Under the pieces are notes generated by a model. It was not told the DNA's origin and did no database searches. It saw nothing but the letters and a program-made list of their open reading frames with translations. A DNA stretch of 64,000 nt from Onthophagus taurus (Eukaryota > Arthropoda > Insecta > Coleoptera > Scarabaeidae), in NCBI RefSeq assembly GCF_036711975.1, contig NC_091971.1, forward strand, positions 3,045,501 to 3,109,500. The letters run 5' to 3'. The position numbers were made by a program, and so were the translations under genes. Positions within the stretch are counted from its first letter, which is position 1. The number at the start of each line of letters is the position of its first letter. Shown here piece after piece: positions 2,511 through 52,000 of the stretch.

Positions 2511-2600
2511 CTGAAGACACAGGGCTAAACCCGAAACTTAAAAATATACAACTTAGCGCAGAATAACAATTAAAACTAGAACTAACACTTGCACTAGAAC
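2511..2600. repeat. Relic of the palindromic CTAGAAC satellite family
   Basis: The phrases GGCTAAACCCGAA and AACTAGAACTAACACT, separated by about 45 bp, match the monomers of the large arrays at 31.0-34.5 and 37.8-39.9 kb. One incomplete, diverged unit is present. Confidence 0.5.
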
Positions 2601-20096: not shown

Positions 20097-21670
20097 TTAA
20101 TAAATTGTGCCATTATTTATAGTCAAAGTTTGACTCGGAGGTTTCAAAGAAAATTGTAGAATTACTGTTAAATAAGCTAATTCTGAAAACATTATCTACA
20201 AAGAATAATGAAATTTATATTTTGTAACATATATTAATTAATAATGATACCTTTGGTATTAATTTGCTTGTTACTGTTAAAAATGTTGTTTTAATTTCAA
20301 TGCTTCTATACTCAAATAATAACATAGTTATTTCAATCTGCAAATTAATAAATTAAAAGATGTCTAAATATAGTAAAACCTCGATATAACCGTGGCTTTA
20401 TTTTATGGCATTAAAACTAGAACTAACACTAGTACTAAAACTAACACTGGAGCTAGAACTAAAAACATTCGGGTTTATCCGCATGTCTCTTAAGACGGCT
20501 AAACCCGCATGTTTCTAGTTATAGGTCTAGTGTTAGTTCTAATGCTAGTTTTATTTGTTGTTAAGTGTTAGATTGAAATTTTAACAAGATTAGTTATATC
20601 GAGGTTCTACAGTATTCAATAAGTCTTATTACCAAATCTATTTCTTCTCGAGTAACTTTTGATAGAGGGTATCGATATAAATACGGTAAAATATTATTTG
20701 TCTAAAAATAAAATAACAATATCATCGATGTCTTAAATGAAATAATTACCTTTGCAATATTATTATCGATGGAATTTATAGAAATATATGTTATTAAAAT
20801 AAATATCACCACTACAAACCCATACCACGAATAATAATCCGGAAATGAAGTTCCATTCATCACTTTTATAATTGTTACGGACGCAATAAACAATAATTCC
20901 GTTGCTAAACACAAAATATAAACCCATATAAGTTGAGAAAATAAATTAACTGAATATTCGCATTGTCTGATAATGATTTTTCTCATAATCAATAGATTTC
21001 GAAGATTATTTTTTAACGTTATTCTAACGTTAACTGATAATCTCTTCTCTAATATATCGATTACATCAGAAGTGTAAGACTTAATGGCGATCGAATTTAA
21101 ATTAATTATCAGCATTAAACTAAATATAATCATTGCGTTTATTGCACCATTTAATATTCCCAATATTATTATAAAATTTCTATTCAAAACGCAAAATGCA
21201 ACACCGGAAAATACGATGAAAATTATCACCATTGAAAACCACACCGCGTATTTTCGTGCCATCTCAGCAATCTCCCAACTGATTATATCTCCACACATTC
21301 GTGTAATGATTGTGTTAATCTTGTATAAATTATCCATTAAGGTTCTCGAAGATTTAGTAATTAGTAATAGATACAAAGACATTAAAGTAGATTGTAACCC
21401 AAATAATATTATTGCCATTTCAAGGTAGGCGTCGAAGTTGAGTAAATTGAAATAATCATCCTGAAACGATAATTTTAAATAAACAGCGCTTACTATTTGT
21501 ATTGATGATAGGATTATAGCTGTTAAGATAGAACATTTCGAAATTTTAAATCCAACTTCGGGAGTTTCGCACGATTTTATGGAAGGAAGTGGTAATAAAA
21601 AACTTGCTACGAATAGAAATGATTTAAAAGCGCAATACCAACAATGATGATTAAATCTTTTTAGTATCAT
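20097..21670 (-). CDS. Gustatory receptor-like 7TM protein (7tm_7), 4 exons, 391 aa
   Basis: Minus-strand exons: 21670-20750, 20701-20633, 20337-20251, 20195-20097. All introns are GT-AG and phase 0, and the model closes on a stop. Exon 1 encodes 307 residues with about six hydrophobic segments. The short C-terminal exons give the YRYPLSK segment and, in the last exon, ELAYLTVILQF, matching the TYhhhhhQF signature of the last helix of insect gustatory receptors. Exons 2 and 3 have exactly the same sizes (69 and 87 bp) as the paralogue at 29309-30599, and both proteins share an N-terminal CWYCA motif. Length is normal for the family (about 350-450 aa). Function: ligand-gated cation channel of taste neurons, ligand unknown. 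Intron 2 holds a TIR transposon copy. I see no defect. Confidence 0.9.
20369..20614. mobile_element. Single-unit TIR element carrying the palindromic satellite, TA duplication
   Basis: Element 20371-20612 starts TAGTAAAACCTCGATATAAC and ends with the inverse TATATCGAGGTTCTACAG, flanked by TA on both sides. Its interior is one monomer of the AACTAGAACTAACACT...GGCTAAACCC hairpin. It lies wholly within intron 2 of the gustatory receptor gene. It shows the basic, unamplified form of the elements that contain the two large arrays. Confidence 0.85.
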
Positions 21671-21874
21671 ATTGCAATAAAGTTTTAAAATAAGGATTGA
21701 TGTTAATAAGTTTGAGTAACTGAGTAGTGTGATAAAAATTGAATTGAATTATTTTATATATTTAAAGAAATTTATTGATTATGAATTATAATGTAATATT
21801 TAAAGTGTTTATTTAATGTCATTGAGTTGAATTATAAATTGTATTTGTTTTGTAAATTCGAAAGTTTCTAATCT

Positions 21875-22110
21875 AGGTTTAGTGTTAGTTCTAGTGGCAG
21901 TGATAGTATAAAACTAGAACTAACACTAGACCTAGAATTAAAAACATTTGGATTTAGCCGCACGTCTCTAAAGACGGCTAAACCCGAGTGTTCCTAGTTC
22001 TAGGTCTAGTGTTAGTTCTAATTTTACACCAACACTATCACTACAGTAGTGTAAGAATGCCGGTTCTAGAGCGGAAGTTGCTCCTGCGGTGACGTCACGT
22101 CTCAATGTAT
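21875..22110. repeat. Single copy of the palindromic CTAGAAC satellite unit with flanks
   Basis: GGTTTAGTGTTAGTTCTAG ... AACTAGAACTAACACTAGAC ... GGCTAAACCCGAG ... TAGTGTTAGTTCTAA forms one hairpin monomer plus part of a second. The right flank contains GTGACGTCAC, resembling the flanks of the large arrays (GTGACGTCA). No clear CAGTAAAACC terminus is visible here. Confidence 0.7.
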
Positions 22111-28235: not shown

Positions 28236-29308
28236 ATACTCCAGAATACTATAGAGGTACGTAAGGACTTGCATTGAGGAAGAACTGGGTGATAAGTAGG
28301 AGCTTTCAGACCAGGACAACAAACATAAATGTATCTAAGTACACCAAGTTTAATTAACTGTAATTTATTGAGGTTATGTTGTATTAAAAATATTTAGCAC
28401 CATAATAAACACTTAATTATAAGAAGATTAATACGAGGAGATATAGTACTTATAAATCTTACATCATCTGTTATTTACAATTTAAAAAAACACAAAATTG
28501 TAGATTTTGTAACCGTATAATCTATCTTAATTTACAATTCGATATTCTAACATCTCTTCCACATCAATTGATACAGTACGGGACCAGCGAAATCTCAGCA
28601 CGACTTTGATGGTGTTCACAATAGATCACCGTTAGTATGACATCAACAGAAAATCAATTAGGACTCGGAGCCATTAGTAGATTGACAAAAAAATAATCTA
28701 ATCCGTACATATTTTTTGATTTTATTTTTGTTTCAACTAATCTGTATGTTATAAGATCGAAAAAAACGATTGTTGGAGTTTTGAAATAATAATATTTAAT
28801 AATAAATTAAGTATGTGATCAAGAATTTAGTTAGATTTGATCTAGATCTGATTCGATGTATTCGTATTGTTATTTATTATGCGAAGAAGTTGCTTGGTGT
28901 GTGGTCTGTTGTACGAAAAAGAAGGTCGTCGATGTTCGGGCAACAAAGATAGCGACGAATCGGAAATGTACTATTGAAAATTAGATTTCGTGGTTTTGTG
29001 TTCGCCCGACTTTTTTATTTACCGTTCTACTAACAGTAATTTTTCTTAATGGTTCTGGTTATTTTCAATATGTCACCCTTATCATTATCTTTGTACCAAT
29101 TTTTAAAACAAACAAAAAAATAACCCTGTACAAACCACTTAAATGTTCATTAAGAAGCATTATTACATATCTAATACGAAGGTATCGTTTAATAAATCAA
29201 CTTAATGACGTTTAAATTATCCACAAGTTTTTAGTCTTTATAAAAGAAACGAAAAAATACGCTTCAGCTTTAGTTTAACTAGAGCTTTTGTCGCAATTAT
29301 TTAAAAAA
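28236..29308. other. Gene-free upstream region of the second gustatory receptor
   Basis: AT-rich, no supportable coding frame. Several T- and A-runs lie just before the start codon at 29309. Confidence 0.35.
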
Positions 29309-30599
29309 ATGATTTTACTTAATAAAAATCATACTTGTTGGTATTGTGCGAATAAAAAAAAAGTAATGTTCATGGGAGTGTTAACAGGTTCGATACATTT
29401 CTCGTTATCGTGTAAAGATATAGAACCGAAATTTAAAAATATTTTATTTATGAGATTAATTTCAACTTTTTTGGCTCTTATGCATCTAATTTCGGCTATT
29501 TATTCAATGTATTTTGTTATCAAAAATTCCAGTCTTCTGGATTCTAACACATACACTACTACTCTTCCTGTTGTAGTGTTATTGAAATCTGGATTGATTC
29601 AGTTAAATATTACTTGGACTGATACTGCCATAATGTACGTTAAAAATATATTTCAATTACATCATATTGTTGATAATACGTGCAAAGAAATAAATATTCA
29701 GAACGTTACAAACAAAATAAGCAATTATATTAATATTGCTTTTGTGGCTAGTATTACAGCCGGATTATTAGGAATCTTTTTCGGGATTACTTGTACTGAT
29801 TTTAACATCATATTATTTACAATTGGAGTGATAAATAGTATAACCCATCCTTTTGTTATTACATTTGCTTTTAATACATACTTATTTTATTTGGTGCATA
29901 TTTCTGAAAATGTTATCCTAGTTTTGGAAAGAAGGCGAAGATACAATAATTCCATTACGGTTAAAAATCGTTTACGTGATTATTTAATATTAAGAAGAAT
30001 GATTAAGAAAGGATGCGAATTTGTTAGCCACGCTTATGGAGTTCCAATTTCTTTGTATGCAATTGGAATTTCAATGGAGGGCATGAATTTGGCATTTATA
30101 GTAATTCTTGGTCTTATATTGAATATGTTTGTGCTTCAATTATGTTTGTATATTTTTCAATTTCTGGTACTTATGGCATTATGAGAGTAGCAAAGAATGG
30201 TTCTAAGGTCAGTTTAATTTTCATCATTTTTTTTTAATTTACTAAAAACATTTGTTTTATTAGGCAGATGAAATTTTAAGTTATTTGTTACGTTATCCGA
30301 TATCTAAACTTAGTAAAGATGAAAGAAATTTGGTAATCATTTTATTTATAACAAAATATAAGTTTTAATATTTATTTATTTTAGATTGAAACAGTAATGG
30401 TTTTAATAATCCACCAAAAAGTTAAATTGAAAGCATTATTTGTTACGGTAACACCAAAATTATATACTGAGGTACTTTATATAATAGTAAAATAATTTCG
30501 TTAATAATTGTAACTTAATTTTAGATTTTAAGCGCTGTTTTTACATATTTCATTATTGCTGTACAATTTTATATAGCAGCATATAATAAACAACCATAA
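29309..30599 (+). pseudogene. Gustatory receptor-like gene with one frameshift, 4 exons
   Basis: Exons: 29309-30207, 30264-30332, 30385-30471, 30525-30599. Splice sites are all GT-AG and the last three exons are phase 0, as in the paralogue at 20097-21670. The start at ATG 29309 is chosen because it gives the same N-terminus (MIL...N-H-x-CWYCA). The last exon carries VFTYFIIAVQF, the gustatory receptor TYhhhhhQF signature. Exon 1 is 899 nt, one short of a multiple of three. The upstream frame ends at a stop at 30182, while the frame that fits the donor (FSISGTYGIMRVAKNGSK) is one base behind. The break lies between about 30095 and 30165, in the sixth helix. With one base restored the protein would be about 376 aa. 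It could be a recent pseudogene, a segregating null allele or a sequencing error. Confidence 0.8.
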
Positions 30600-30931
30600 T
30601 AAATTAAATAATACATTGCACACATTTTAAAATGAACACTTATTCTTAGTAAAATTTGAGCACTTTTTAAATAATTTATTTAACACAAGTTCCTAAAAAT
30701 AAAGATCTTAAAAATATTTTTGTTAGTTAATTAATAATACGTTTTCTTATACCTTGCTTATAACCGAAAGTACAAAAAAAAATGGCAATCTGCAATACAG
30801 TAAAAGTAGGTAAGGAAGAAACTTTATCATTACAGTAAAAGTGGCAACCAGCGTTTTTGATGACATTTATAAATAAGTGAAAATAGTTGTCAATTCAAAA
30901 AATATTTTAAACTTTGTTTGGATTATAAATA

Positions 30932-31054
30932 CAGTAAAATGAGTTATAGCCAAAAGTCCGTTATAAAGGGCGTAAGAATCTAAAACTGCTTCATCCTGGG
31001 AGCAGGCGCACAGCTCGAAGGCCCGTTCGTGACGTCAGCGCTGATTAACTATTA
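30932..31054. mobile_element. Left terminus of the TIR element carrying satellite array 1
   Basis: TA at 30930-30931 is followed by CAGTAAAATGAGTTATAGCC, like the CAGTAAAACCTCGAT terminus of the elements at 20.4 and 40.2 kb. Further in, GCTCGAAGGCCCGTTCGTGA at about 31012-31031 is the exact inverse of the flank of array 2 at 40062-40084. The matching right end of this copy is not visible beyond 34472. Confidence 0.65.
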
Positions 31055-34000
31055 AAACTAGAACTAACACTAGACTTAGAACTAGAAACATTCGGGTTTA
31101 GCCGCAAGTCTTTCAAGACGGCTAAACCCGAATGATTCTAGTTCTAGGTTTTGTGTTAGTTCTAGTGATAGTGCTAGTGAAAAACTAGAACTAACACTAG
31201 ACTGAGAACTAGAAACATTCAGGTTTAGCCGTGCGTCTCTCAAGACGGCTAAACCCGAATGATTCTAGTTCTAGGTGTTGTATTAGCTCTAGTGATAGTG
31301 CTAGTGAAAAACTAGAACTAACACTAAACCGAGAACTAGAAACATTCGGATTTAGCCGTGAGTCTCTCAAGACGGCTAAACCCGAATGATTCTAGTTCTA
31401 GGTCTTGTCTTAGTTCCAGTGATAGTGTCAGTGTAAAACTAGAACTAACATTAGGCCTAGAACTAGAAACATTCGGATTTAGCCGCACGTCTCTCAAGAC
31501 GGCTAAACCCGAATGATTCTAGTTCTAGGTGTTGTGTTAGTTCTAGTGATAGTGCTAGTGAAAAACTAGAACTAACACTAGACTGAGAACTAGAAACATT
31601 CGGATTTAGCCGCACGTCTCTCAAGACGGCTAAACCCGAATGATTCTAGTTCTAGGTGTTGTATTAGTTCTAGTGATAGTGCTAGTGAAAAACTAGAACT
31701 AACACTAGACTGAGAACTAGAAACATTCAGGTTTAGCCGTGAGTCTCTCAAGACGGCTAAACCCGAATGATTCTAGTTCTAGGTCTTGTCTTAGTTCCAG
31801 TGATAGTGCCAGTGTAAAACTAGAACTAACATTAGGCCTAGAACTAGAAACATTCGGATTTAGCCGCACGTCTCTCAAGACGGCTAAACCCGAATGATTC
31901 TAGTTCTAGGTGTTGTGTTAGTTCTAGTGATAGTGCTAGTGTAAAACTAGAACTAACATTAGACCGAGAACTAGAAACATTCAGGTTTAGCCGTGAGTCT
32001 CTCAAGACGGCTAAACCCGAATGATTCTAGTTCTAGGTCTTGTCTTAGTTCCAGTGATAGTGCCAGTGTAAAACTAGAACTAACATTAGGCCTAGAACTA
32101 GAAACATTCGGATTTAGCCGCACGTCTCTCAAGACGGCTAAACCCGAATGATTCTAGTTCTAGGTGTTGTGTTAGTTCTAGTGATAGTGCTAGTGTAAAA
32201 CTAGAACTAACATTAGACCGAGAACTAGAAACATTCGGATTTAGCCGCACGTCTCTCAAGACGGCTAAACCCGAATGATTCTAGTTCTAGGTCTTGTCTT
32301 AGTTCCAGTGATAGTGTAAAACTAGAACTAACATTAGACCTAGAACTAGAAAGATTCAGGTTTAGCCGTGCGTCTCTCAAGACGGCTAAACCCGAATGAT
32401 TCTAGTTCTAGGTTTTGTGTTACTTCTAGTGATAGTACTAGTGTTAAACTAGAACTAACACTAAACCGAGAACTAGAAACATTCGGATTTAGCCGCACGT
32501 CTCTCAAGACGGCTAAACCCGAATGATTCTAGTTGTAGGTTTTGTGTTAGTTCTAGTGATAGTACTAGTGTAAAACTAGAACTAACACTAGATCGAGAAC
32601 TAGAAACATTCGGATTTAGCCGCACGTCTCTCAAGACGGCTAAACCCGAATGATTCTAGTTCTAGGTCTTGTCTTAGTTCCAGTGATAGTGTAAAACTAG
32701 AACTAACATTAGACCTAGAACTAGAAACATTCGGGTTTAGCCGCAAGTCTTTCAAGACGGCTAAACCCGAATGATTCTAGTTCTAGGTCTTGTGTTAGTT
32801 CTAGTGATAGTGCTAGTGTAAAACTAGAACTAACACTAGACCGAGAACTAGAAACATTTGGGTTTAGCCGCACGTCTCTCAAGACGGCTAAACCCGAATG
32901 ATTCTAGTTCTAGGTTTTGTCTTAGTTCCAGTGATAGTGCCAGTGTAAAACTAGAACTAACATTAGACCTAGAACTAGAAACATTCGGATTTAGCCGCAC
33001 GTCTCTCAAGACGGCTAAACCCGAATGATGCTAGTTCTAGGTGTTGAGTTAGTTCTAGTGGTAGTGCTAGTGTAAAACTAGAACTAACATTAGACCGAGA
33101 ACTAGAAACATTCGGATTTAGCCGCACGTCTCTCAAGACGGCTAAACCCGAATGATTCTAGTTCTAGGTTTTGTGTTAGTTCTAGTGATAGTACTAGTGT
33201 AAAACTAGAACTAAAACTAGACTGAGAACTAGAAACATTCGGATTTAGCCGCACGTCCCTCAAGACGGCTAAACCCGAATGATTCTAGTTGTAGGTCTTG
33301 TCTTAGTTCCAGTGATAGTGCCAGTGTAAAACTAGAACTAACACTAGACCGAGAACTAGAAACATTTGGGTTTAGCCGCACGTCTCTCAAGACGGCTAAA
33401 CCCGAATGATTCTAGTTCTAGGTGTTGTGTTAGTTCTAGTGATAGTGCCAGTGAAAAACTAGAACTAACACTAGACTGAGAACTAGAAACATTCAGGTTT
33501 AGCCGTGCGTCTCTCAAGACGGCTAAACCCGAATGATTCTAGTTCTAGGTTTTGTCTTAGTTCCAGTGATAGTGCCAGTGTAAAACTAGAACTAACATTA
33601 GACCTAGAACTAGAAACATTCGGATTTAGCCGCACGTCTCTCAAGACGGCTAAACCCGAATGATTCTAGTTCTAGGTGTTGTGTTAGTTCTAGTGATAGT
33701 GCTAGTGTAAAACTAGAACTAACATTAGACCGAGAACTAGAAATATTCGGATTTAGCCGCACGTCTCTCAAGACGGCTAAACCCGAATGATTCTAGTTCT
33801 AGGTCTTGTCTTAGTTCCAGTGATAGTGTAAAACTAGAACTAACATTAGACCTAGAACTAGAAAGATTCAGGTTTAGCCGTGCGTCTCTCAAGACGGCTA
33901 AACCCGAATGATTCTAGTTCTAGGTTTTATGTTAGTTCTAGTGATAGTACTAGTGTAAAACTAGAACTAACACTAAACCGAGAACTAGAAACATTCGGAT

Positions 34001-34472
34001 TTAGCCGCACGTCTCTCAAGACGGCTAAACCCGAATGATTCTAGTTGTAGGTTTTGTGTTAGTTCTAGTGATAGTACTAGTGTAAAACTAGAACTAACAC
34101 TAGATCGAGAACTAGAAACATTCGGATTTAGCCGCAAGTCTTTCAAGACGGCTAAACCCGAATGATTCTAGTTCTAGGTCTTGTCTTAGTTCCAGTGATA
34201 GTGAAAAACTAGAACTAACACTAGACTGAGAACTAGAAACATTCAGGTTTAGCCGCACGTCTCTCAAGACGGCTAAACCCGAATGATGCTAGTTCTAGTG
34301 AGAGTGCTAGTGCAATACTAGAACTAACACTAGACCAAGAACTAGAAACATTCGGATTTAGCCGCACGTCTCTCAAGACGGCTAAACCCGAATGTTTCTA
34401 GTTCTAGATCTAGTGTTAGTTCTAGTTTTAATTGTGATTCAGTGCTGAATGTTTCTAGTTCTAGGTCTATTT
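31055..34472. repeat. Palindromic satellite array 1, about 127-bp unit, about 27 copies
   Basis: Each unit has a left arm (AACTAGAACTAACACTAGAC..., then CATTCGGATTTAGCC), a core (GCACGTCTCTCAAGAC or variants), and a right arm that is nearly the inverse of the left (GGCTAAACCCGAATG, ATTCTAGTTCTAGG, GTGTTAGTTCTAG). The right-arm landmark recurs at 31121, 31248 and 31375, 127 bp apart. Units differ at many diagnostic bases (CATTC/GATTC; GCACG/GTGAG/GTGCG), and blocks of variants recur at about 1.51 kb. No coding frame crosses it. Confidence 0.95.
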
Positions 34473-37400
34473 ATTACTTTCTATTAGTTTTTTTTTAATT
34501 GATTATATATTATTGCAAAATTTTTCATTTAAAAATATTTTGATTGTAAATCTTGAGTGAAGATGACCAGGAAGAGTTAAAATACACTTGATGGAAGCAA
34601 TCAAGTGATTCCACGCCCACGAGGGCGTCATATCTCACATTGGCGTTTCGACAGGTTGAGGCATTAACTACTCCCAACACTTAAGATAAAGAGAACAGAT
34701 AGTTGTTGTGGCGCGATGTGGGTAGCGGGTTATTCAAAAAATTCGTTTTTTTTACATCCTTTTCTTTTCCACGGAAAAAAACAAAAAAGGAAAATTACCT
34801 CAAAAAAAAACAAAATATATTCTTATTCAATCTAAATGACAAATTCCAACGCTTCTTTCATCGGGCTGGTGTAATTTCGAATCCAGCACGTGCCTCATTC
34901 TATATCTCGTTTCTTCCTTTCTCGCACATTTGGCGCCGTATAAAAATTCCCAGACCGTGTTTACTTTCTAAAAGGACTTGGAGTTAAATTAAATTATCAG
35001 ACGAAAAATAAAAAGAGGGATACTAGTGTAGTGTTTAAAGTTTAAAGTAAAGGATTTATTTTTATTAAAAAAAAAATAGTAATTTGTTTCGGGTGGACCG
35101 ACAGTGATAGATCATCGCGATCTGAAATATTTGTCCGAACTGTTCCGAGTTAAATTGTGTGATGGCGCGTGCCGTGGAAGACTACTGTTAAAGACAAATG
35201 ATCGAACGTCGCCGTACGGTACTCATAAAATTTAATTATATAATCGTAACTCCGGCTATTTTCGAGTAACCCCGCTGAGAATTTTAGACAAATCAGAACT
35301 CTTGGAGCGTTATTTATGTTCGTGTCTTACGAATAAAGTGCTTTCTTGCCAACTGAACCTCTACAACAGGTTAATATCAAGAAACAGGTTCATAAAACTT
35401 TAATCTTTTGATACTCTTTTTGATGATGTCAACTAAAATTTTTAAGAACCTATAGAATATTTTGATCAAATTCACTTCATTAAAAAAATTTATTATAAAT
35501 CACCCTACAAGGAAAGCTTTAAAATTCATGTAGATATCTATTACTTTAATTCCTTAACATGTAATACCGTTAAAACCCCGCAAACAAAATCCGCTTAGGC
35601 ACCGATTTACCAAAATAACAGGATGACAGGACAAAATTCCAACCAGCCAGCAACTTACCACGGTTCTCCCCAACAAATACTCTTATGCCAAGAAAGATAT
35701 CTCGCCGAATGAGTTCTCCTGTAAAATTATTCAAATCCATCGCTTCACCTTCTTGCTCTCTTCTTGTCCATCTGTCTTGCTCTGCGCCTTTTTTTTGTTC
35801 TTCAGCAGCAAAGTCTCTTCGCTGGCGATCTCTTCCTACTTCATCATTCGAACACGGCTCGTATCTTCTCCTCTACCGGTTCGATTTGTGCTCCGTTGCT
35901 TGGTCTAAGAGCGAAACGGTGTTTTTGAGCTAATATGGTCACGCGGTAGCCGCACAACGACGCCTTCTAAAGGTATCCATATGGATGCCGTACGCGCTCC
36001 ATGCGACGTCTCAGGCCAAATCAGATACCGGACTCGTGTACAATACTTAATCTACGCTATCAACTCAGGAGATCTGACCTCTACCAACCTGCTAGAACTC
36101 TTAAGGATGTTTATTGAATATTAATACACCTTGTGATTTTCAACTTAGCTACTTATCTTTTTGTAACGTGTAAATGAAATATAAAATGAAATATAAAGAA
36201 AAACGGATATGTACAATATTAAAAAGTCAATTAAATAGTATAATATACATAGTGTATATAGTATAATATACTCTATCGATCTATTAAATTTTTTATATTT
36301 TTATTTTGAATTCATGTATGTATGCATTGAATCATTTCAATCATAATTAAAGAGCTCAGCGAATACCGGCCACCGCAGTTGTACCCGGACGGTCATTAAT
36401 ACAGCCCGCGAAGACAGATATGTATCTGTAGACTGAAATTGCTACTGGACTCTGCGTCCACCGACAGTTGACTGCTGTGACAAATGACAGATCGTACGGT
36501 TTTTAATTGCTCTCGTGCTCCGTGAAGACTCCGGAGCAACAGCAACCGCTCCGGATTTACACAAACACCGAGACCCGGAGAGAGACAGAAACCTATATAT
36601 TACACTTAAGTCTTCCGAACCGAACGACGATCGCATATTTCTAGCGCATCCAACAAGTATCATAAGATCCTAAGCAGTGTGTATTCGAAGAGAAGAAGAA
36701 GTTAAGCCGAGGAGTGTAACCAGTGATGTGTGTTCCAATCTGGTAAAGTGCGATCTTTAAGCTGACTTGACAACTTGGACTTCTTCGTATCGTATTTCAA
36801 AATACTATTAAGCCTAGGTGGGCTTTTAATAATAATTAGATATAATTTTCGGGACAACGAAAGACTTGATATAATTTATGGCTATAATGGGTCTTCGAGA
36901 AGACTTCACGGTGTCTTCGAGCGGATGTGAACTACAATTGACGTGCTTGAAAAAGACGTGCTTATTTAACGCTAGGTAAAACACAATGTGTTGACTTGAC
37001 GTACTTACATAAAAACCAACCATGCATGGATAATATTAATTAAATGAGAAAAACTTGAATTACGTTCTATAGATAATTATAAAGGTTAAAAATTATCTTA
37101 AATGTTATATATTAAAATTTTTTGTAAATTTAAAAGGTTAAAATTAAAAGTGTTTAGTAAAATTTCGTGGGAACTTATGTGTACCATATAAGTGACTTAC
37201 TTCTTATAGAAATATCTTTAATAAAGAAGATCTTTAAGATGTTTTCATCGCGTGAAACGTTTCGGTCACCTCGGTTCCTTTCACGCCTATCCATCCATTG
37301 TACCAAAGAATTCGGTTTTTTCGAGGTGACACATGCTTTGAAGCTTTTGAAAGAGTCGCACCTGATTATTCCACATCGACTTTCGTGTGTCGACATAATC

Positions 37401-37793
37401 TAGCGTCTGAGAGATTAAAATCTATTTAAAAAAGAAAACCCTTCTTGATTCGAATAAGAATAATAATTTTATTTTTTTCGATTTTAAACACTCTTTGGAA
37501 TACGTCGGTACTAATTAAAAATAAATCCGTTTAAAAATAATTTTGAGATGACGTCGTTTCGAACATAATATTTCGAAACGGTCAATTAAATTTACCGGCT
37601 GCACCTTATTAAAGAAGTTGGCAATTTATCTGTCTTCTGTAGTGATGAGTCACACTACAGAAGCTGCACACAATGAGGCGCTTTTAACCGGCCATTATAA
37701 TACAATACACCTCGGTGGGTGCGGTTCAATTATTGTTATTAAAATTTTATTAGAAAAGTAAGCCGCCGGAACAACTTGTTTGCATTGAATATA
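34473..37793. other. Gene-free stretch between the satellite arrays
   Basis: No gene is supported. GC-richer blocks at about 35640-36080 and 36355-36760 contain only short frames (35685-35933; 36442-36663 minus) without domains. The second block is purine-rich at its end (about 36690-36720) and could be an untranslated first exon of a gene outside the window, which I cannot test here. Confidence 0.35.
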
Positions 37794-40180
37794 TAGTAAA
37801 ACCTCGATATAGTGGACAAAAGTTCTAGGTATAGTGTTAGTTCTAGTTTTAATTGTTATTCAGTGCTAGGTTGTTGTATGTTATTATTGAACTAACACTA
37901 GACCTACAACTAGAAACATTCGGTAATGGAATAAAATAATAGATATAGTGTTAGTTCTACATAGTAACAGTGCTACTGCAAAATTAGAACTAACACTATA
38001 CCTAGCACTAGAATCATTTGGGTTTAGCCGCACGTCTCTAAAGACGGCTAAACCCGAATGATTCTAGTTCTAGGTATAGTGTTAGTTCCATATAGTAACA
38101 GTGGTAGTGTAAAACTAGAACTAACACTAGACCTAGAACTAGAATCATTCGGGTTTAGCCGTCTTTAGAGACGTGCGGCTAAACCCAAATGATTCTAGTT
38201 CTAGGTATAGTGTTAGTTCCATATAGTAAAAGTGGTAGTGTAAAACTAGAACTAACAGTAGACCTAGAACTAGAATCATTCGGGTTTAGCCGTCTTTAGA
38301 GACGTGCGGCTAAACCCAAATGATTCTAGTTCTAGGTATAGTGTTAGTTCCATATAGTAACAGTGGTAGTGTAAAACTAGAACTAACACTACACCTAGAA
38401 CTAGAATCATTCGGGTTTAGCCGTCTTTAGAGACGTGCGGCTAAACCCAAATGATTCTAGTTCTAGGTATAGTGTTAGTTCCATATAGTAACAGTGGTAG
38501 TGTAAAACTAGAACTAACACTAGACCTAGAACTAGAATCATTCGGGTTTAGCCGTCTTTAGAGACGTGCGGCTAAACCCAAATGATTCTAGTTCTAGGTA
38601 TAGTGTTAGTTCCATATAGTAACAGTGGTAGTGTAAAACTAGAACTAACACTAAACCTAGAACTAGAATCATTCGGGTTTAGCCGTCTTTAGAGACGTGC
38701 GGCTAAACCCAAATGATTCTAGTTCTAGGTATAGTGTTAGTTCCATATAGTAACAATGGTAGTGTAAAACTAGAACTAACACTAGACCTAGAACTAGAAT
38801 CATTCGGGTTTAGCCGTCTTTAGAGACGTGCGGCTAAACCCAAATGATTCTAGTTCTAGGTATAGTGTTAGTTCCATATAGTAACAGTGGTAGTGTAAAA
38901 CTAGAACTAACACTAGACCTAGAATTAGAATCATTCGGGTTTAGCCGTCTTTAGAGACGTGCGGCTAAACCCAAATGATTCTAGTTCTAGGTATAGTGTT
39001 AGTTCCATATAGTAACAGTGGTAGTGTAAAACTAGAACTAACACTAGACCTAGAACTAGAATCATTCGGGTTTAGCCGTCTTTAGAGACGTGCGGCTAAA
39101 CCCAAATGATTCTAGTTCTAGGTATAGTGTTAGTTCCATATAGTAACAGTGGTAGTGTAAAACTAGAACTAACACTAGACCTAGAACTAGAATCATTCGG
39201 GTTTAGCCGTCTTTAGAGACGTGCGGCTAAACCCAAATGATTCTAGTTCTAGGTATAGTGTTAGTTCCATATAGTAACAGTGGTAGTGTAAAACTAGAAC
39301 TAACACTAGACCTAGAACTAGAATCATTCGGGTTTAGCCGTCTTTAGAGACGTGCGGCTAAACCCAAATGATTCTAGTTCTAGGTATAGTGTTAGTTCCA
39401 TATAGTAACAGTGGTAGTGTAAAACTAGAACTAACACTAGACCTAGAACTAGAATCATTCGGGTTTAGCCGTCTTTAGAGACGTGCGGCTAAACCCAAAT
39501 GATTCTAGTTCTAGGTATAGTGTTAGTTCCATATAGTAACAGTGGTAGTGTAAAACTAGAACTAACACTAGACCTAGAACTAGAATCATTCGGGTTTAGC
39601 CGTCTTTAGAGACGTGCGGCTAAACCCAAATGATTCTAGTTCTAGGTATAGTGTTAGTTCCATATAGTAACAGTGGTAGTGTAAAACTAGAACTAACACT
39701 AGACCTAGAACTAGAATCATTCGGGTTTAGCCGTCTTTAGAGACGTGCGGCTAAACCCAAATGATTCTAGTTCTAGGTATAGTGTTAGTTCCATATAGTA
39801 ACAGTGGTAGTGTAAAACTAGAACTAACACTAGACCTAGAACTAGAATCATTCGGGTTTAGCCGTCTTTAGAGACGTGCGGCTAAACCCAAATGATTCTA
39901 GTTCTAGGTCTAGTTTTACTTCAATGAAAAATATATGTACAACAATCTGACGCTGAATAACAATTAAAACAGCTAGCTTAGTGTGTACTTTATTTTACTT
40001 CAAAAAAGTATTTAACATTTGCTAAATCAAAATGTGAAATAGTAGTTGCCTACCCCTGCGTGACGTCACGAACGGGCCTTCGAGCTATACACTTGTTCCC
40101 GGGTTCATTTTTGTGTGTATTAAAATTAAACCACTCCCTTCCCCGTATTAATATAACGCATTAATCGAGGTTTTACTGTA
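37792..40180. mobile_element. TIR element carrying satellite array 2, TA duplication
   Basis: Left end 37794 reads TAGTAAAACCTCGATATAG; right end finishes AATCGAGGTTTTACTG at 40178. TA lies on both sides. The termini match the 242-bp single-unit copy in the gustatory receptor intron. The unique right flank (40047-40140) contains GTGACGTCACGAACGGGCC, inverse to the left flank of array 1. The terminal motif and TA target resemble pogo/Tc1-mariner-type elements; that assignment is inference, since no transposase is present. Confidence 0.85.
37820..39915. repeat. Palindromic satellite array 2, 131-bp unit, about 15 copies
   Basis: Same hairpin family as array 1 but with a 131-bp period: ACGTGCGGCTAAACCCAAAT recurs at 38171, 38302, 38433 and 38564 and on to 39874, giving 14 units. 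These are almost identical to one another, in contrast to array 1. The core is in the opposite orientation (GTCTTTAGAGACGTGC). The first unit (about 37985-38100) still has the array-1 orientation (GCACGTCTCTAAAGAC), so the orientation switches inside the array. A partial unit lies at the left edge. Confidence 0.95.
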
Positions 40181-41992
40181 TATTAATTTCTGGCAAAAAA
40201 ATCCTAATAAGTATTTCATAGAAACAATATTAAGATTTATAAGCCTGGTTTACTTTACATAATACAACTCCCATCCTACCATCATTAAGACAAACATCTC
40301 GGTTTTACGATCTCAATCCGTCGCGAAAGGGGTTTTCTCTTTCTCTCTTTCTCGTCGTAGCAATAACGCGGCAATAATAATGCCCCATTACTACTGTTCC
40401 GGGGAGCGGTAGCGGTCTCGCAGCGGGGTCTCCGTATTCATGCCTTCATTTGCTAACTTATTATTGCACTTAGCAGCGTCGAATTTTTAGAGATCGCCGG
40501 GTTGGATTGCTCGCGTTGAATTTATTCGATTATGACGGGGCGAAGAATGGTCGCCCGCGCGTGTTCCTATAGAGCCGAAGAAGAAGAGGAAGAACATAGA
40601 TGGGGCCCCAAAGCACGACAGGACGTGCCACGCCGATATAATCTAAGAAATGCCATGTCCAGTGTATGTGCGCTTCTTGTATATGGACCGAAGAACTAAA
40701 CTCCGGTTCTCTCTTCTGCGCTGGATGTTATTATGGTGGAACCCTAGGTATTATCTTGATTTGTATAATGGATAGACATTAGTAGTACGTGTGTTAAATT
40801 ATGATTGACTGCCAATGGTAATTAACTCCGACTTTTCATTTGACCCAATACTTTTGAAACATCCTGTAACTTTTACGTCGTTGAAAGCTTTAAAAAATGA
40901 TACTTTTATTACTTTAATAAAGATTGGAGAGTTGAAGAAGATCTTGATTTACTGTTATCGAAAAAGAAATAAAAGATAAAATTGAAAAGCAAACAACGGG
41001 TTAGCAGGCGAGGCGGTTAATCGTTTCTTTCGGGACACCCGCTACGAGATAATAACGTCGAAGGTGCAATCTGCCGATTGGTTATTAATTGTGGGAAGTC
41101 GAATTTCCGGGAAAATAATGCGCCCGGCGTCCCCACAAAAGACCATGATTTACCGCACGCTATTATAAAAGGTATTAAGGAGCGTATACGCGAAAAGGAT
41201 TCCTACGTGCACGTCCAATTATTTCTACAAATTATACGGCGATTTTTTATTTTAATAATCCAATATTTATGAGTGTATTTTTCATTTTAATGGCTCATCC
41301 TGAAAATATCAATTTATTTCAGATATTACAAAAAAGTTCGTTGTAAACATCACCATAATATCACACACACTTAAACCAACCTATATTAAGCAATTCCAAA
41401 GAAATTATCGCATTATTTAAAAAAAAAATAAATTAAATTTAAAATTTTGAATGTGACATAACGAATTTGCGCCATCTATTAGAAACCGGATCAATTAAAA
41501 TTTTTAATCCTAAAATAACTTGTAGAATTACAAAAATTCATTTAATTAAAAAAAAAAAATAATAACTCATCATTCTTAATCATTATTTTTAGGAAATAAT
41601 AAACAAAAAAAGAGCTTTATTAAATATTAAAAAAAATTAAATAAAATTGCGCCACCTACAAAATGATATATAAATTAAAATGTTTGAGTTAAAAAAAACT
41701 ATAATAACACAATATCGTTTTTACGAATAAATTTCAAAATTTTATTATTATTTATTAATTTAAATACTTAATTTATTTTAATATTTCTTCTCAATTTTTA
41801 AATAATTAATTTATTTTTATTTAATTATTAACTTCACCGCGAGATGTCACCCCACGCGTCATTAAAACGTCACTAAATGTAACTCACCTCAATACCAAGC
41901 CGTTCTATTTTGCTCTAAATAAGAGGTTATCCGAAAGTGTGTTATAAGTTATAAGTAATCTTTATAAAATACGAATTAAAATTAATCCCAAG
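40181..41992. other. Gene-free stretch with a GC-rich block, then eIF4A3 5' flank
   Basis: 40310-40640 is CpG-rich for this window and contains AT-type homeodomain-like cores (TTTATTCGATTA), so it is a candidate regulatory block; this is inference. 41280-41840 is very AT-rich. The last 150 bp before 41993 form the 5' flank of the eIF4A3 ORF; no TATA box or initiator can be singled out. Confidence 0.35.
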
Positions 41993-43198
41993 ATGTCTAA
42001 ACGCGCGCAAAGTGAAGCTTTTGAGGATTTATCGAACGTAGAGTTCGAAACGAGCGAAGATGTCGATGTGGTTGATAAATTCAAGAATATGAACCTTCGG
42101 GAAGAACTCATGCGTGGAATCTTCGCGTATGGCTTCGAGAAACCATCAGCAATTCAACAAAGAGCTATTAAACCGATTATAAAGGGACGAGATGTGATTG
42201 CTCAAGCACAATCCGGTACAGGTAAAACAGCTACGTTTTCGATAGCTATACTACAATCTTTGGATTTTACAATGAGAGAAACTCAAGTTTTGTGTTTATC
42301 ACCAACTAGAGAACTTGCAGTTCAAATACAAAAGGTAATCTTAGCGTTGGGTGATTTTATGAATGTTCAATGTCACGCTTGTATCGGAGGCACCAATTTA
42401 GGTGAGGATATCAGGAAATTAGATTACGGTCAACACGTTGTTAGTGGAACCCCTGGAAGAGTTTATGATATGATTCGTCGTAGAGCTTTACGTACTCGAG
42501 CTGTTAAAATGCTTGTGTTAGACGAAGCCGATGAGATGCTTAATAAAGGATTTAAAGAACAAATTTACGATGTATACAGATTTTTACCTCCATCAACTCA
42601 AGTTGTACTTATTTCCGCCACACTCCCCCATGAAATTTTAGAGATAACCTCAAAATTTATGACCGATCCTATTCGTATTTTGGTAAAACGTGATGAATTG
42701 ACTTTAGAAGGAATAAAACAGTTCTTTGTTGCTGTTGAACGAGAAGAATGGAAATTTGATACACTTTGCGATTTGTATGATACTTTAACCATCACACAAG
42801 CTGTTATTTTTTGCAATACAAAACGTAAGGTTGATTGGTTAACTGAAAAAATGCGCGAAGCTAACTTTACAGTAAGTTCAATGCATGGAGATATGCCCCA
42901 AAAGGAACGTGATAATATCATGAAGGAGTTTCGTTCTGGGCAAAGTCGAGTTTTAATTACTACAGATGTTTGGGCAAGAGGAATTGATGTCCAACAAGTT
43001 AGTTTGGTTATTAATTATGATTTACCTAATAATCGTGAATTGTATATTCATCGTATTGGACGTTCAGGAAGATTTGGGCGAAAAGGTGTCGCAATTAATT
43101 TCGTTAAATCAGATGATATTAGGATATTGAGAGATATTGAACAGTATTATTCTACACAAATTGACGAAATGCCCATGAATGTTGCAGATCTTATTTAA
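41993..43198 (+). CDS. eIF4A3: Eukaryotic initiation factor 4A-III (DEAD-box RNA helicase, exon-junction core), intronless, 401 aa
   Basis: A single open frame covers the whole protein. Motifs: Q-motif region [13 protein letters not shown] (47-59), Walker A AQSGTGKT (72-79), PTREL (104-108), GG and TPGR (132-133, 153-156), DEAD (177-180), SAT (208-210), the ARGID block (328-332) and HRIGRSGR (353-360). It ends [11 protein letters not shown], the conserved eIF4A3 C-terminus, and the N-terminal [11 protein letters not shown] is the eIF4A3-specific variant rather than eIF4A1/2. Role from the family: clamps spliced mRNA 20-24 nt upstream of exon junctions with Mago, Y14 and Barentsz, and acts in nonsense-mediated decay and mRNA localisation. 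AATAAA lies near 43315. The frame is intact; either the native gene lacks introns in this lineage or this is an intact retrocopy. Confidence 0.97.
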
Positions 43199-46079: not shown

Positions 46080-49000
46080 ATGTTCAATGTTAATTTATTA
46101 ACTTTTTTATTACCCCTTTCATTCACCCCATTTTCTTTATCTTTTAATTACACCGAAATTAATTTACCTGATGAACACTTACAGTATTATTTCTCAAGAT
46201 ACCCAAAAATTAATGAAGAATGCGATCGTGATCCAAATTGTCCTTATAAAGAGTTTTTAGCAACGAATAAATGTTGGGGTTATGAATACAATTGTAAGAG
46301 AACAAACAGATATTCAGAACCGATTTGTTTGGGGGATCATAAAGGATGGGTGAAAACAAAAGGGGACCAAATCGACACGTTTTACACCCAAGCTGATTTT
46401 GGTTACATTAAAGCTCAATTAGAAGAATTAAAAGTTTATTGTGAACCACTTTTCGCTGACGATAGCTCTTTAGAATGTTCAGATAACTTAAGATTTTGTC
46501 GAGGAAGAAATATTATGATTAATTTTACTTCATTAGCAGCAAGAAATGATCCTATTAGGTATAAAATGGATGTTTTAGGGGACGGTGATATAGGTTAGTT
46601 TTATTTTTATGTTGAAAATTCATAATTTTATATTTTTATCTTTATAAATAGGGGGTTATTGCAATTTTTATAAAGAAAAGCTGAAGAAACAATTAGATCA
46701 TATGAGCCCATTACAAAGTTGGGCCCCTGAAATTAAAAACTTTAAACAACTACAACAAAAACCAATACAAAACAACGATTGTGATGTTATTATAGAAAAA
46801 CCAACTTTTATCATGAAAATTGATGCAAGTAAGTGATACAACCTAAAATGAATCTAATAATAATAATTTTTAATTTAGCAGTTAATATGTATCATCATTT
46901 TTGTGATTTTTTGAATCTCTATGCTTCGATACATTTAAATTCAACCAGATTTGATGATTTTACCACAAATACAAACATTTTAATCTGGGAAACATTTTCT
47001 TATCGCTCTGCTTTTGAATCGACGTTTGAAGCTTTTACAACGAATCAAATTTGGGATTTAAAAACGTTTCGTGGTGATACAGTCTGTTTTAAAAACATAG
47101 TTTTTCCTTTATTACCTCGAATGATTTTTGGATTATACTACAACACCCCAATTATTTATGGATGCGAACGTAGCGGTTTATTTCACGCATTTTCCAAATT
47201 CATTTTGCACAGATTAAACGTTCCTTTATATAAACGTAAAAATGATAAAGTTAGAATCACATTTTTATCAAGAGATACAACTTATCGAAAGATAAATAAC
47301 GAAAATGAATTAATTAAGGCATTGGAAAATATTGAAGAGTATGAAGTGAGGAAGGTTGTTTATAATCGAAATATTGAGTTTAAGAAGCAATTGGAGATTA
47401 GTAGGAATTCGGACGTTTTTATTGGTATTCATGGAGCAGGGCTAACACATTTGATGTTTCTACCAGATTGGGCAGCTATTTTTGAAATGTAAATATTAAA
47501 TAATTTACTTAAATTACTAAATTGAAATGTTTATAAATTACTTTTAGATATAATTGTGAAGATCCAAATTGCTACAAAGATTTGGCAAGGTTAAGAGGTG
47601 TTAAATATTTCACGTGGGAAAATCAAGATAAATTAATTCAACAGGATGAGGTAAAATATTAAAAAAAAATCATTCGCTTCTATTGAGGAGGAAAATATAA
47701 CTTTTCCAAGGTTGGCGCATTTGTATGAATTGACATCTGCTTTGGTGAATAACTTTGAGTTAGTTCTTCAGAAGTTTTAATAAGATTCAAGTTTACTCCA
47801 TGAACCTCAAAAAAACATTTTTTCTAATCAAGTTGACATTTTCAACTCCAAAATGACATTTCCTATTATGAAATTGTCATCTTAAACTTCAAAATGATAT
47901 GAAATTGTTGTTTTAATTTTTAAAATACTATTTCCTACTTTTAAAATGCCATTATAAACTTTAAAACGACATTTTTTATTATCAAGTTGACATCTTAAAC
48001 TTTAAAATGACATTGACGTTTTAAATGTCAAAATAACATTTCTTATTCTCAAGCAGCCTTCATGAACCTCAAAATAACATTTTTTCTGATCAAGTTGACA
48101 TTTTCAACTCCAAAATGACATATCCTATTATGAAGTTGTCATCTCAACCTTCAAAATGATATCAAATTGTTGTTTTAAACTTTAAAATACTATTTCCTAC
48201 TTTTAAAATGTCATTATGAACTTTAAAACGACATTTTTTTAATATCAAGTTGATATCTTAAACTTTAAAATGACTGTCACATTTGACATTGACGTTTTAA
48301 ATATGAAAATAACATTTCTTATTCTCAAGCAGCCTTCATGAACCTCAAAATAACATTTCCTATTATGAAGTTGTCATCTCAAACTTCAAAATGATATGAA
48401 ATTGTTGTTTTAAACTTTATAATGATATTTCCTACTTTTTAAACTTTTAAACGTCATTATGAACTTTAAAACGACAGTGTCATATTTGACATTGACGTTT
48501 TAAACATCAAAATAACATTTTCTCTAATCAAGTTAACATTTTCAACTCCAAAATGACATTTCCTATTATGAAGTTGTCATCTTAAACTTCAAAATGATAT
48601 GAAATTGGTGTTTTAAACTTTAAAATACTATTTCCTACTTTTAAAATGTCATTATGAACTTTAAAACGACATTTTTTAATATCAAGTTGACATCTTAAAC
48701 TTTAAAATGACATTGTCACATTTGACATTGACATTTTAAATGTCAAAATAACATTTCTTATTCTCAAACAGCCTTCATGAACCTCAAAATAACATTTTTT
48801 CTGATCAAGTTGACATTTTGAACTCCAAAATGACATATCCTATTATGAAGTTGTCATCTCAAACTTCAAAATGATATCAAATTGTTGTTTTAAACTTTAA
48901 AATACTATTTCCTACTTTTAAAATGTCATTATGAACTTTAAAACGACACTTTTTATTATCAAGTTGATATCTTAAACTTTAAAACGACTGTTATATTTGA

Positions 49001-52000
49001 CATTGACGTTTTAAATATGAAAATAACAATTCTTATTCTCAAGCAGCCTTCATGAACCTCAAAATAAAATTTCCTATTATGAAGTTGTCATCTCAAACTT
49101 CAAAATGATATGAAATTGTTGTTTTAAACTTTATAATGATATTTCCTACTTTTAAAACGTCATTATGAACTTTAAAACGACAGTCATATTTGACATTGAC
49201 GTTTCCAACATCAAAATAACATTTTCTCTAATCAAGTTGACATTTTCAACTTCAAAATGACGTTGCCTATTATGAAGTTGTCATCTTAAACTTCAAAATG
49301 ATATGAAATTGTTATTTTAAACTTTAAAATACTATTTCCTACTTTTAAAATGTCATTATGAACTTTAAAACGACATTTTTTTAATATCAAGTTGATATCT
49401 TAAACTTTAAAATGACTGTCACATTTGACATTGACGTTTTAAATATGAAAATAACATTTCTTATTCTCAAGCAGCCTTCATGAACCTCAAAATAACATTT
49501 CCTATTATGAAGTTGTCATCTCAAACTTCAAAATGATATGAAATTGTTGTTTTAAACTTTATAATGATATTTCCTACTTTTTAAACTTTTAAACGTCATT
49601 ATGAACTTTAAAACGACAGTGTCATATTTGACATTGACGTTTTAAACATCAAAATAACATTTTCTCTAATCAAGTTAACATTTTCAACTCCAAAATGACA
49701 TTTCCTATTATGAAGTTGTCATCTTAAACTTCAAAATGATATGAAATTGGTGTTTTAAACTTTAAAATACTATTTCCTACTTTTAAAATGTCATTATGAA
49801 CTTTAAAACGACATTTTTTAATATCAAGTTGACATCTTAAACTTTAAAATGACATTGTCACATTTGACATTGACATTTTAAATGTCAAAATAACATTTCT
49901 TATTCTCAAACAGCCTTCATGAACCTCAAAATAACATTTTTTCTGATCAAGTTGACATTTTGAACTCCAAAATGACATATCCTATTATGAAGTTGTCATC
50001 TCAAACTTCAAAATGATATCAAATTGTTGTTTTAAACTTTAAAATACTATTTCCTACTTTTAAAATGTCATTATGAACTTTAAAACGACACTTTTTATTA
50101 TCAAGTTGATATCTTAAACTTTAAAACGACTGTTATATTTGACATTGACGTTTTAAATATGAAAATAACAATTCTTATTCTCAAGCAGCCTTCATGAACC
50201 TCAAAATAAAATTTCCTATTATGAAGTTGTCATCTCAAACTTCAAAATGATATGAAATTGTTGTTTTAAACTTTATAATGATATTTCCTACTTTTAAAAC
50301 GTCATTATGAACTTTAAAACGACAGTCATATTTGACATTGACGTTTCCAACATCAAAATAACATTTTCTCTAATCAAGTTGACATTTTCAACTTCAAAAT
50401 GACGTTGCCTATTATGAAGTTGTCATCTTAAACTTCAAAATGATATGAAATTGTTATTTTAAACTTTAAAATACTATTTCCTACTTTTAAAATGTCATTA
50501 TGAACTTTAAAACGACAGTCATATTTGACATTGACGTTTCCAACATCAAAATAACATTTTCTCTAATCAAGTTGACATTTTCAACTTCAAAATGACGTTG
50601 CCTATTATGAAGTTGTCATCTTAAACTTCAAAATGATATGAAATTGTTATTTTAAACTTTAAAATACTATTTCCTACTTTTAAAATGTCATTATGAACTT
50701 TAAAACGACATTTTTTATTATCAAGTTGACATCTTAAATTTTAAAATGACATTGTCACATTTGAGATTCTCAAGCATTCTTCATGAACCTCAAAATAACA
50801 TTTTCAACTACAAAATGACATTTCCTATTATGATGTTGTCATCTGAAACTTCAAAATGATATGAAATTGTTGTTTTAAACTTTAGAATGACATTTCCTAC
50901 TTTTTAAAACGTCATTATCAACTTTAAAACGACATTTTCTTATTTGACATTGACGTTTTAAACATCAAAATAACATTTCTCAATAACGACATACCTCAAT
51001 GTTATCTGAGTCTTGTGTTAGTTCTAGTGATAGTGCTAGTGTAAAACTAGAACTGAGACCAGACCTAGAACTTTTAGTTCAATAAAAATATGCAACATAG
51101 TGATATTTTATGCTAACTAGCGCTACCTACCACCTAGCTAAAAGACTAATAGTTAAAACAAACAATTATGGCATTAAATAGTGATTTGACCAAAGATTTG
51201 AAATGTAAATCAAGTAAAGGACTTTGCTGCAAAAAAGTGCAGAAAAATTAATCTTTAAATCTGCTGTGAAGTGATATTATTACAAAAGTTGTGAAAGATT
51301 CACAACTTTTCATTTCTTTACGTCGGAGATTTTACAGAAAATTAAAAAGGAGTTGTTACTTCTTCTTCCTCAGCCTGTACTCACCCATTGTTGGAGATAA
51401 CCCTCTTCCAAAGGCTCCATTTATGCCTGTCTTGCTGTTATTATCCATTCTTTCCCCGCCACATCCTTCACATCATCGGTTCACCTCGTTTCCGGCCTTT
51501 CTGCACTTCTACTAGTTTTTTGTGTCCATTTTTCTGTTTTCTCAGTGTCACTGTCATTTATGTTTTTCTGCGAATGTTGCTATTTCTAATCTTCTCTCTC
51601 AGAGTGACTACCAGCATTACTTTGGGTTACACCAAGTTGTTCTGCAGTATTCGTTGTCAAGGCTATGGTTTTAATTCGGTAGATATTGACAGTATGAAGT
51701 ATATATAAGTTAAATCTCTCTTTTATAATCTTAAGCTTGTGATTCCAGACTTCGTAGCACCAGCTAATTATCAATATGATACATTTTTCATTCTATTATG
51801 GAGTGCTATGTTTTGGAATACTGCACAACCTCCATTTTTAGATATTGAGTAGTTTTTTAAATCTTAATTTTGTAGTAACAAAATTCTTATTCCGGTTCTT
51901 AAATACCATAGACTTTACAGAAGTTCAATTTTCTTAAATATAATCTTTCATTACGTCATAGCCCTGGTGATCAACAGAAGATATGTTTTAATAGCCGTTT

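Follow-up and report, generated by a model that had tools for sequence, protein, structure and literature searches.

Transposons are already known to seed satellite DNA, and transposon-linked satellites such as miDNA4 and Xstir have been described (PMC12628747), with further cases given in a second account (PMC9659126). miDNA4, a Tc1/mariner miniature inverted-repeat transposable element (MITE) of Xenopus tropicalis, is non-autonomous and holds either one monomer or a variable tandem array, and its end-less arrays are thought to derive from the element (PMC12628747, PMC9659126). For the Xstir/Xmix MITE, also of Xenopus, the description brings MITE, tandem-array and composite forms together and proposes a stem-and-loop model of expansion (PMC12628747). 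Tetris/TIR-220 of Drosophila virilis is a foldback-like, non-autonomous element whose internal repeats made satellite arrays and whose allelic copies vary in unit number (PMC4079207). Transposon-like TCAST elements of Tribolium castaneum are dispersed and consist of hairpin-forming inverted repeats of satellite monomers (PMC3411249). A system with likenesses to all of these is described here from the beetle Onthophagus taurus, in a 64,000-nucleotide stretch of contig NC_091971.1 (C6:3045501-3109500, hereafter the window) and in the rest of its assembly (290.8 Mb, 33 contigs), which was searched as a whole. It consists of near-palindromic units of about 127–131 bp, found singly and in short tandem arrays. 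These are probably the interiors of non-autonomous, TA-inserting cut-and-paste transposons with at least two end families, in which a palindromic interior has expanded in situ and parts of the unit have been inverted in place.

The system also differs from miDNA4, Tetris and TCAST. The available accounts of miDNA4 mention no palindromic monomers, no two nested end families and no core inversions, as far as their text extends. In Tetris, the repeats lie within long terminal repeats and the target duplications are 8–10 bp, whereas here the near-palindromic units are interior and the flank is TA. TCAST elements comprise about one monomer and an inverted part, some with an ACT 3-bp target duplication, and the sections describing them mention no internal array. 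In the open-licence literature searched, so far as its accessible text goes, neither nested end families nor a repeated inversion of the core has been described for a transposon-borne satellite. The sequence family may nevertheless already be catalogued elsewhere. A full-text literature search with the arm sequence returned 0 papers, which is weak evidence of absence, and no match was found to three unit or terminus patterns among viral contigs or to the core pattern in a genome-contig collection, where insect-type DNA is not expected, so that these two results have no bearing on relatives. The repeatedly flipped unit parts are an unusual twist on a known theme.

The window contains two tandem arrays. 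Array 1 (31053–34407, + strand) comprises 27 units, mostly about 127 bp long with some of 121 or 109 bp, and array 2 (37940–39922, + strand) has 15 units of 131 bp, both counted by the core pattern. Tandem Repeats Finder (TRF) reports 25.7 copies of a 127-bp period for the first (31053–34298, 91% match), with a continuation of 109-bp period at 34194–34407, and 15.1 copies of a 131-bp period for the second (37940–39922, 98% match), in which 13 linkers have a mean identity of 99.1%. Each unit has arms of about 44–50 bp on either side of an asymmetric spacer, usually of 16 bases, and the consensus arms from 48 arrays match each other at 43 of 44 positions. In four monomers, self-complementarity was 56–79 compared to means of 15.8–16.4 and a maximum of 31 in 200 dinucleotide-preserving shuffles of each, while the predicted DNA folding energy was −30 to −45 kcal/mol compared to means of about −9 to −11 kcal/mol in 100 shuffles each. 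The original prediction of two arrays of near-palindromic units, each almost an inverted repeat around a 16-base core, is thus confirmed by TRF and the core pattern for the arrays and by values far beyond the shuffles for the unit.

Two intact elements in the window are bounded by CAGTAAAACCTCGAT-type inverted termini, the terminus of this end family, termed A, being TACAGTAAAACCTCGATATAACGG. The first is a single-unit element of 242 bp at 20371–20612 (20369–20614 with the TA on each side), whose termini show one and two mismatches over 15 positions. It folds near end to end, with a self-complementarity of 102 compared to a shuffle mean of 26.7, and its longest stop-free stretch is 42 amino acids. 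The second contains array 2 and spans 37794–40178 (37792–40180 with the TA on each side), with a longest stop-free stretch of 60 amino acids. Its right terminus is exact and its right end Aii-type, and its left terminus is within 1–2 mismatches of 15, the left end fitting the Aiii model over 30 bp. A copy with one unit and a copy with 15 units therefore have the same kind of termini. Both elements had been anticipated with these limits, the first also with its TA duplication, and the expectation proved accurate. The accompanying claim, that both arrays lie inside copies of transposons with terminal inverted repeats (TIRs), holds for array 2 and is not borne out for array 1. The left end of array 1 (30930–31061, + strand) is damaged: TA-CAGTAAAA leads into subterminal sequence of the Aii type that contains GAAGGCCCGTTCGTGACGTC, and the end reads TA-CAGTAAAATGAG... 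with the conserved CCTCGAT portion gone. To the right of array 1, a terminus was looked for with the end models and none was found. The inverted flanks supposed to be common to both arrays are present, since GAAGGCCCGTTCGTGACGTC occurs without mismatch at 31017 (+) to the left of array 1 and at 40062 (−) to the right of array 2. This motif has 390 matches in the genome with up to 3 mismatches and 0 in the control.

Ends and units are both abundant in the genome. The exact 15-mer of the A terminus has 271 + 289 = 560 matches (reversed-pattern control 0), and a 24-mer with up to 3 mismatches has 1069 + 1044 (control 1). A 29-mer from the half-unit, with up to 2 mismatches, has 11,200 + 11,279 matches, or about 22,500 (control 0). 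At 1.15 half-unit matches per unit this means about 19,500 units, or about 0.85% of the genome, a rough estimate because the ratio was partly drawn from loci picked with the same pattern. Loci sampled outside the window are all on one contig, C1, and were taken from the first-listed matches, which makes the sample non-random. Among the first 30 A termini listed there, satellite homology of at least 40 bp within 1.5 kb was found on the inner side of 22 and on the outer side of none (Fisher p = 8e-10). The satellite begins 37–409 bp from the terminus in 21 of these 22 cases and at 1247 bp in the remaining one, and TA directly precedes 28 of the 30 termini. By manual reading, three A end subtypes (i, ii and iii) diverge just inside the common terminus. 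Frames of 90–200 amino acids behind some A termini are not tied to the element.

Many arrays without A ends carry the same units and bear ends of a second family, B. The B ends are TACAGTGAATTTCAC... and TACCGGGAATTTCATATAACTCGC...; the v end reads TACAGTGAATTTCACTTAA... and the iv end TACCGGGAATTTCATATAACTCGC..., with 628 and 571 genome matches, respectively (controls 0). In the sampled loci, with up to 5 mismatches allowed, TA precedes 12 of 12 B-v and five of six B-iv termini. The two families are nested, as the A(i) terminus occurs at a fixed position within the B-v end (..AATATAATTTGACATTA/CAGTAAAACC..). This junction occurs at 260 places genome-wide (control 0) and at 11 of the 30 sampled A termini. 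Its recurrence means that A and B are partly composite, and that free A elements are fewer than the count of A termini implies. A relic of such a composite end, with the A(i) terminus immediately inside the B-v end, was recognised from end-model matches in the window at 52043–52205 (− strand). Elsewhere, three exact B-iv ends lie in the same direction at a spacing of 704–710 bp (C5:2771999-2773444), perhaps as tandem whole B elements.

To sample arrays, 20 stretches of 10 kb were drawn from C1 at the first clusters in the list of unit matches. These contain 36 arrays or single units with a median of 4.5 and a maximum of 18 units. Flanks more than about 300 bp from an array are seldom common to different loci, neighbouring arrays excepted, which indicates that each array is an insertion of its own or what is left of a truncated one. 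Units resemble each other more within an array than between arrays, as local expansion would predict: linkers have a mean identity of 0.959 within compared to 0.784 between arrays for the beta type and of 0.990 compared to 0.872 for gamma, where 78 of the 79 within-array pairs come from array 2. Some units from different arrays are also 97–99% alike.

Several observations weigh against expansion inside transposons. Recognised ends stand on both sides of only four of the 36 sampled arrays, on one side of 15 and on neither side of 17, three of which sit at the edge of a sampled stretch. This tally was read manually from program output and counts B ends (a few of them short matches), A matches that reach or nearly reach the terminus, and Aii and Aiii terminal segments; the Ai end model also fits an internal segment common in arrays, and Ai matches lacking the terminus were excluded as ends. 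The end-model search behind the tally gave 163 matches compared to 1 in its reversed-sequence control. Exact A termini show no clear pairing, with four convergent, one divergent and three same-direction neighbours within 10 kb among the 100 listed on C1. For alpha linkers, the identity within arrays (0.905) is barely above that between arrays (0.873). Finally, a transposase was not found in the elements: none of 21 PF03184 (DDE_1) matches and none of 25 PF13358 (DDE_3) matches on C1, where linkage was compared, sits within an A element. The closest PF03184 match is 6.6 kb away from any listed exact terminus, and the closest PF13358 match is 2.2 kb from one, on its outer side. As the best 150 of 1691 candidates for PF03184 and the best 150 of 1708 for PF13358 were scored, a transposase linked to the ends may have escaped detection.

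The original prediction had proposed a single cut-and-paste element that became a satellite, and had named a predominance of arrays without TIRs as evidence to the contrary. Such a predominance is seen in the sample when A ends alone are considered, and not clearly once B ends are counted, since 19 of the 36 arrays then have some end. The core of the proposal is supported by units inside and not outside the termini, by one- and many-unit copies and by local homogeneity, while the end-less arrays, the few with both ends, the second end family and the unpaired termini speak against its simple form. Together, the associations of ends with arrays and the second end family suggest TA-inserting non-autonomous transposons with a locally expanded interior, rather than one clean element.

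The arrays without recognised ends could also be read in the opposite direction, with the satellite first. A dispersed near-palindromic tandem repeat would then have existed beforehand and been captured by both A and B, and many arrays would never have had ends. It would account for units that are common to two end families and for about 22,500 half-unit matches compared to about 2,100 A termini, and tandem-repeat capture has been proposed for the ancestor of miDNA4 in the part of that account available (PMC12628747). However, the near end-to-end fold of the single-unit element in the window makes the unit look native to the element, and the units start no more than 409 bp from the terminus in all but one of the 22 cases. 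Moreover, the recurrence of one fixed A–B junction at 260 places shows that the two families were not captured independently. Prior existence of the satellite is accordingly a minority possibility, and rather unlikely.

For transposons with an expanded interior, a course of events can be outlined. Elements of the IS630-Tc1-mariner kind, non-autonomous and, in the intact window copies, non-coding with a near-palindromic interior, would insert at TA, moved in trans by a transposase. At many sites the interior unit of the inserted copy, about 127–131 bp long, would then expand in situ into a short array, probably via replication slippage or unequal exchange, with the hairpin-forming arms as an aid. 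One or both transposon ends would later be lost or outgrown in some arrays. At some stage, A would have become nested with B at a fixed internal site, an A end within a B end, and then multiplied. Because the core and the linker are both palindromic, exchange between arms would account for the in-place inversion of either, which has occurred more than once and gives two relative phases of core and linker. We infer this order of events and the mechanism of exchange.

The inversions themselves can be read directly from the arrays, using the asymmetric spacer to assign each core one of two orientations, P or M. All cores of array 1 are P and its linkers are alpha, while array 2 begins with one P core followed by 14 M cores; by their linkers, both arrays run in the same direction. 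The arrays had been described as opposite in orientation, which is correct for the unit core (except in the first unit of array 2) and for the GC-rich flank, and incorrect for the linker. In the first unit of array 2, the 50-bp core stem (38013–38062) corresponds exactly, stem mismatch included, to the reverse complement of its 50-bp counterpart in each of the 14 later units, and the linkers on either side keep their direction, so that only the centre is inverted. A second sampled locus (L009) has one core reversed between two gamma linkers of equal direction. Among 109 intervals between like-facing cores, 55 linkers are alpha, 28 beta, 21 gamma and five of other types. Relative to the core, the centre of the beta linker is 95% identical to the reverse complement of the alpha centre, compared to 74% for the alpha centre read directly. 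Neighbouring cores face in opposite directions in 16 of 125 intervals of 60–140 bp. Exact patterns for the two linker-core phases have 1152 and 980 matches genome-wide (controls 0), a near equality that is indicative only, as the patterns are unequal in strictness and copies of a phase that arose by amplification are not independent events. The relative orientation of the two palindromic centres has changed by inversion on more than one occasion. It is conceivable, though on balance doubtful, that the centres act as frequently inverting switches, with arm-to-arm flips making both phases about equally common and forming part of array expansion.

A single genome contains many insertions caught at different stages, the smallest with one unit and the largest with an array of 27, and stem mismatches and the asymmetric spacer serve as natural markers that reveal in-place inversions. 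Long reads from several individuals would make it possible to count directly how mobile elements turn into satellites and what the palindromes contribute to this.

The stems can also be considered at the level of RNA, if the chain of stems were transcribed and folded into a functional RNA or a source of hairpin small RNAs. The predicted stems are strong, and the two arms of a unit fit each other slightly better than they fit the arms of other arrays. For this comparison, 218 of 236 units were kept, those with more than 16 arm mismatches or incomplete arms being removed; with one unit from each of 48 arrays, there were 6.46 mismatches per 44 nt between own arms compared to 6.82 with arms of other arrays (permutation p of about 0.017), and 6.89 compared to 7.15 as the mean of 300 random picks. 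The effect is tiny, however, and comparisons between arrays are alike whether made left to left (6.42), right to right (6.47) or left to right (6.82), so there is no clear sign that compensating changes maintain the stems. In addition, positions 20300–41000 have no Rfam match at the gathering threshold, and, judged by eye, characteristic stem mismatches of the alpha and gamma types persist uncorrected across units. An RNA role is therefore very improbable.

A centromere- or heterochromatin-type satellite can be weighed in the same way. The units are tandem and near-palindromic, and (peri)centromeric satellites of beetles have been published that show dyad symmetries and within-array orientation changes (PMC13081366). 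Those of Tribolium madens, as described in the accessible part of that paper, combine orientation changes within arrays and large dyad symmetries with multi-megabase regions. However, the arrays here are short throughout the C1 sample, although no search for long arrays was made elsewhere. Their more distant flanks are seldom common between loci, and the arrays in the window lie among genes, with a DEAD-box helicase frame 1.8 kb away. This interpretation is exceedingly improbable, and neither it nor the small-RNA source, both raised speculatively at the outset, found support in this analysis. A reading of the unit as containing a CENP-B box was considered and dropped, as the box did not appear to match the unit.

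In terms of known classes, the TA expected of IS630-Tc1-mariner elements is present at nearly all sampled A, B-v and B-iv termini and on both sides of the intact window elements. TIRs bound both ends of these elements and of one sampled locus (L039), while most sampled arrays have one end or none. The 242-bp element is short, non-coding, multi-copy and TIR-bounded, as is typical of MITEs, and longer copies reach kilobases. A Tetris-type foldback structure was considered and rejected, the units of array 2 being interior and near-palindromic and the element ends being of different subtypes. Like a classical satellite, the units are arranged head to tail in tandem; long heterochromatic arrays were not seen, the maximum being 18 units in the 36 arrays on C1 and 27 in the window.

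The transposase searches also brought out groups of similarly scoring matches. Seventeen places share an identical PF13358 score of 72.7 bits, 15 of them in 363-amino-acid frames, which suggests a recently multiplied Tc1-like element. Five PF03184 matches of equal E-value (8.6e-44; C2:30609949, C5:11386986, C6:27078903, C8:19312728 and C11:9877943), three of them in 578-amino-acid frames, suggest a recently multiplied pogo-like element. Twelve PF13358 matches at C8:13.54-14.20 Mb, all on the minus strand with 57–61 bits and mostly spaced by 36–65 kb, are perhaps a segmental tandem amplification.

Further traces of the unit occur in the window. A solitary unit without recognised ends lies at 21879–22021, with a P-type core at 21951, and pattern and end-model matches identify a degenerate unit fragment with an associated Ai internal segment at 2520–2592 (+ strand). 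The latter is adjoined by a 122-bp tandem repeat (1951–2505, 4.5 copies, 96% match). The helicase frame mentioned above (41948–43198, + strand) is uninterrupted over 416 amino acids, matches PF00270 and PF00271, and lies 1.8 kb from the array 2 element. Two long hydrophobic frames without Pfam match, at 20702–21748 (− strand) and 29279–30184 (+ strand), have a common CWYCA motif and are possibly paralogous receptor-like genes. Finally, an AT-rich repeat with a period of about 41 bp and higher orders of 193–203 and 396 bp occupies 47833–50937 and 59448–61225; the two places are about 8.5 kb apart, and by eye their consensus sequences are reverse complements of one another.

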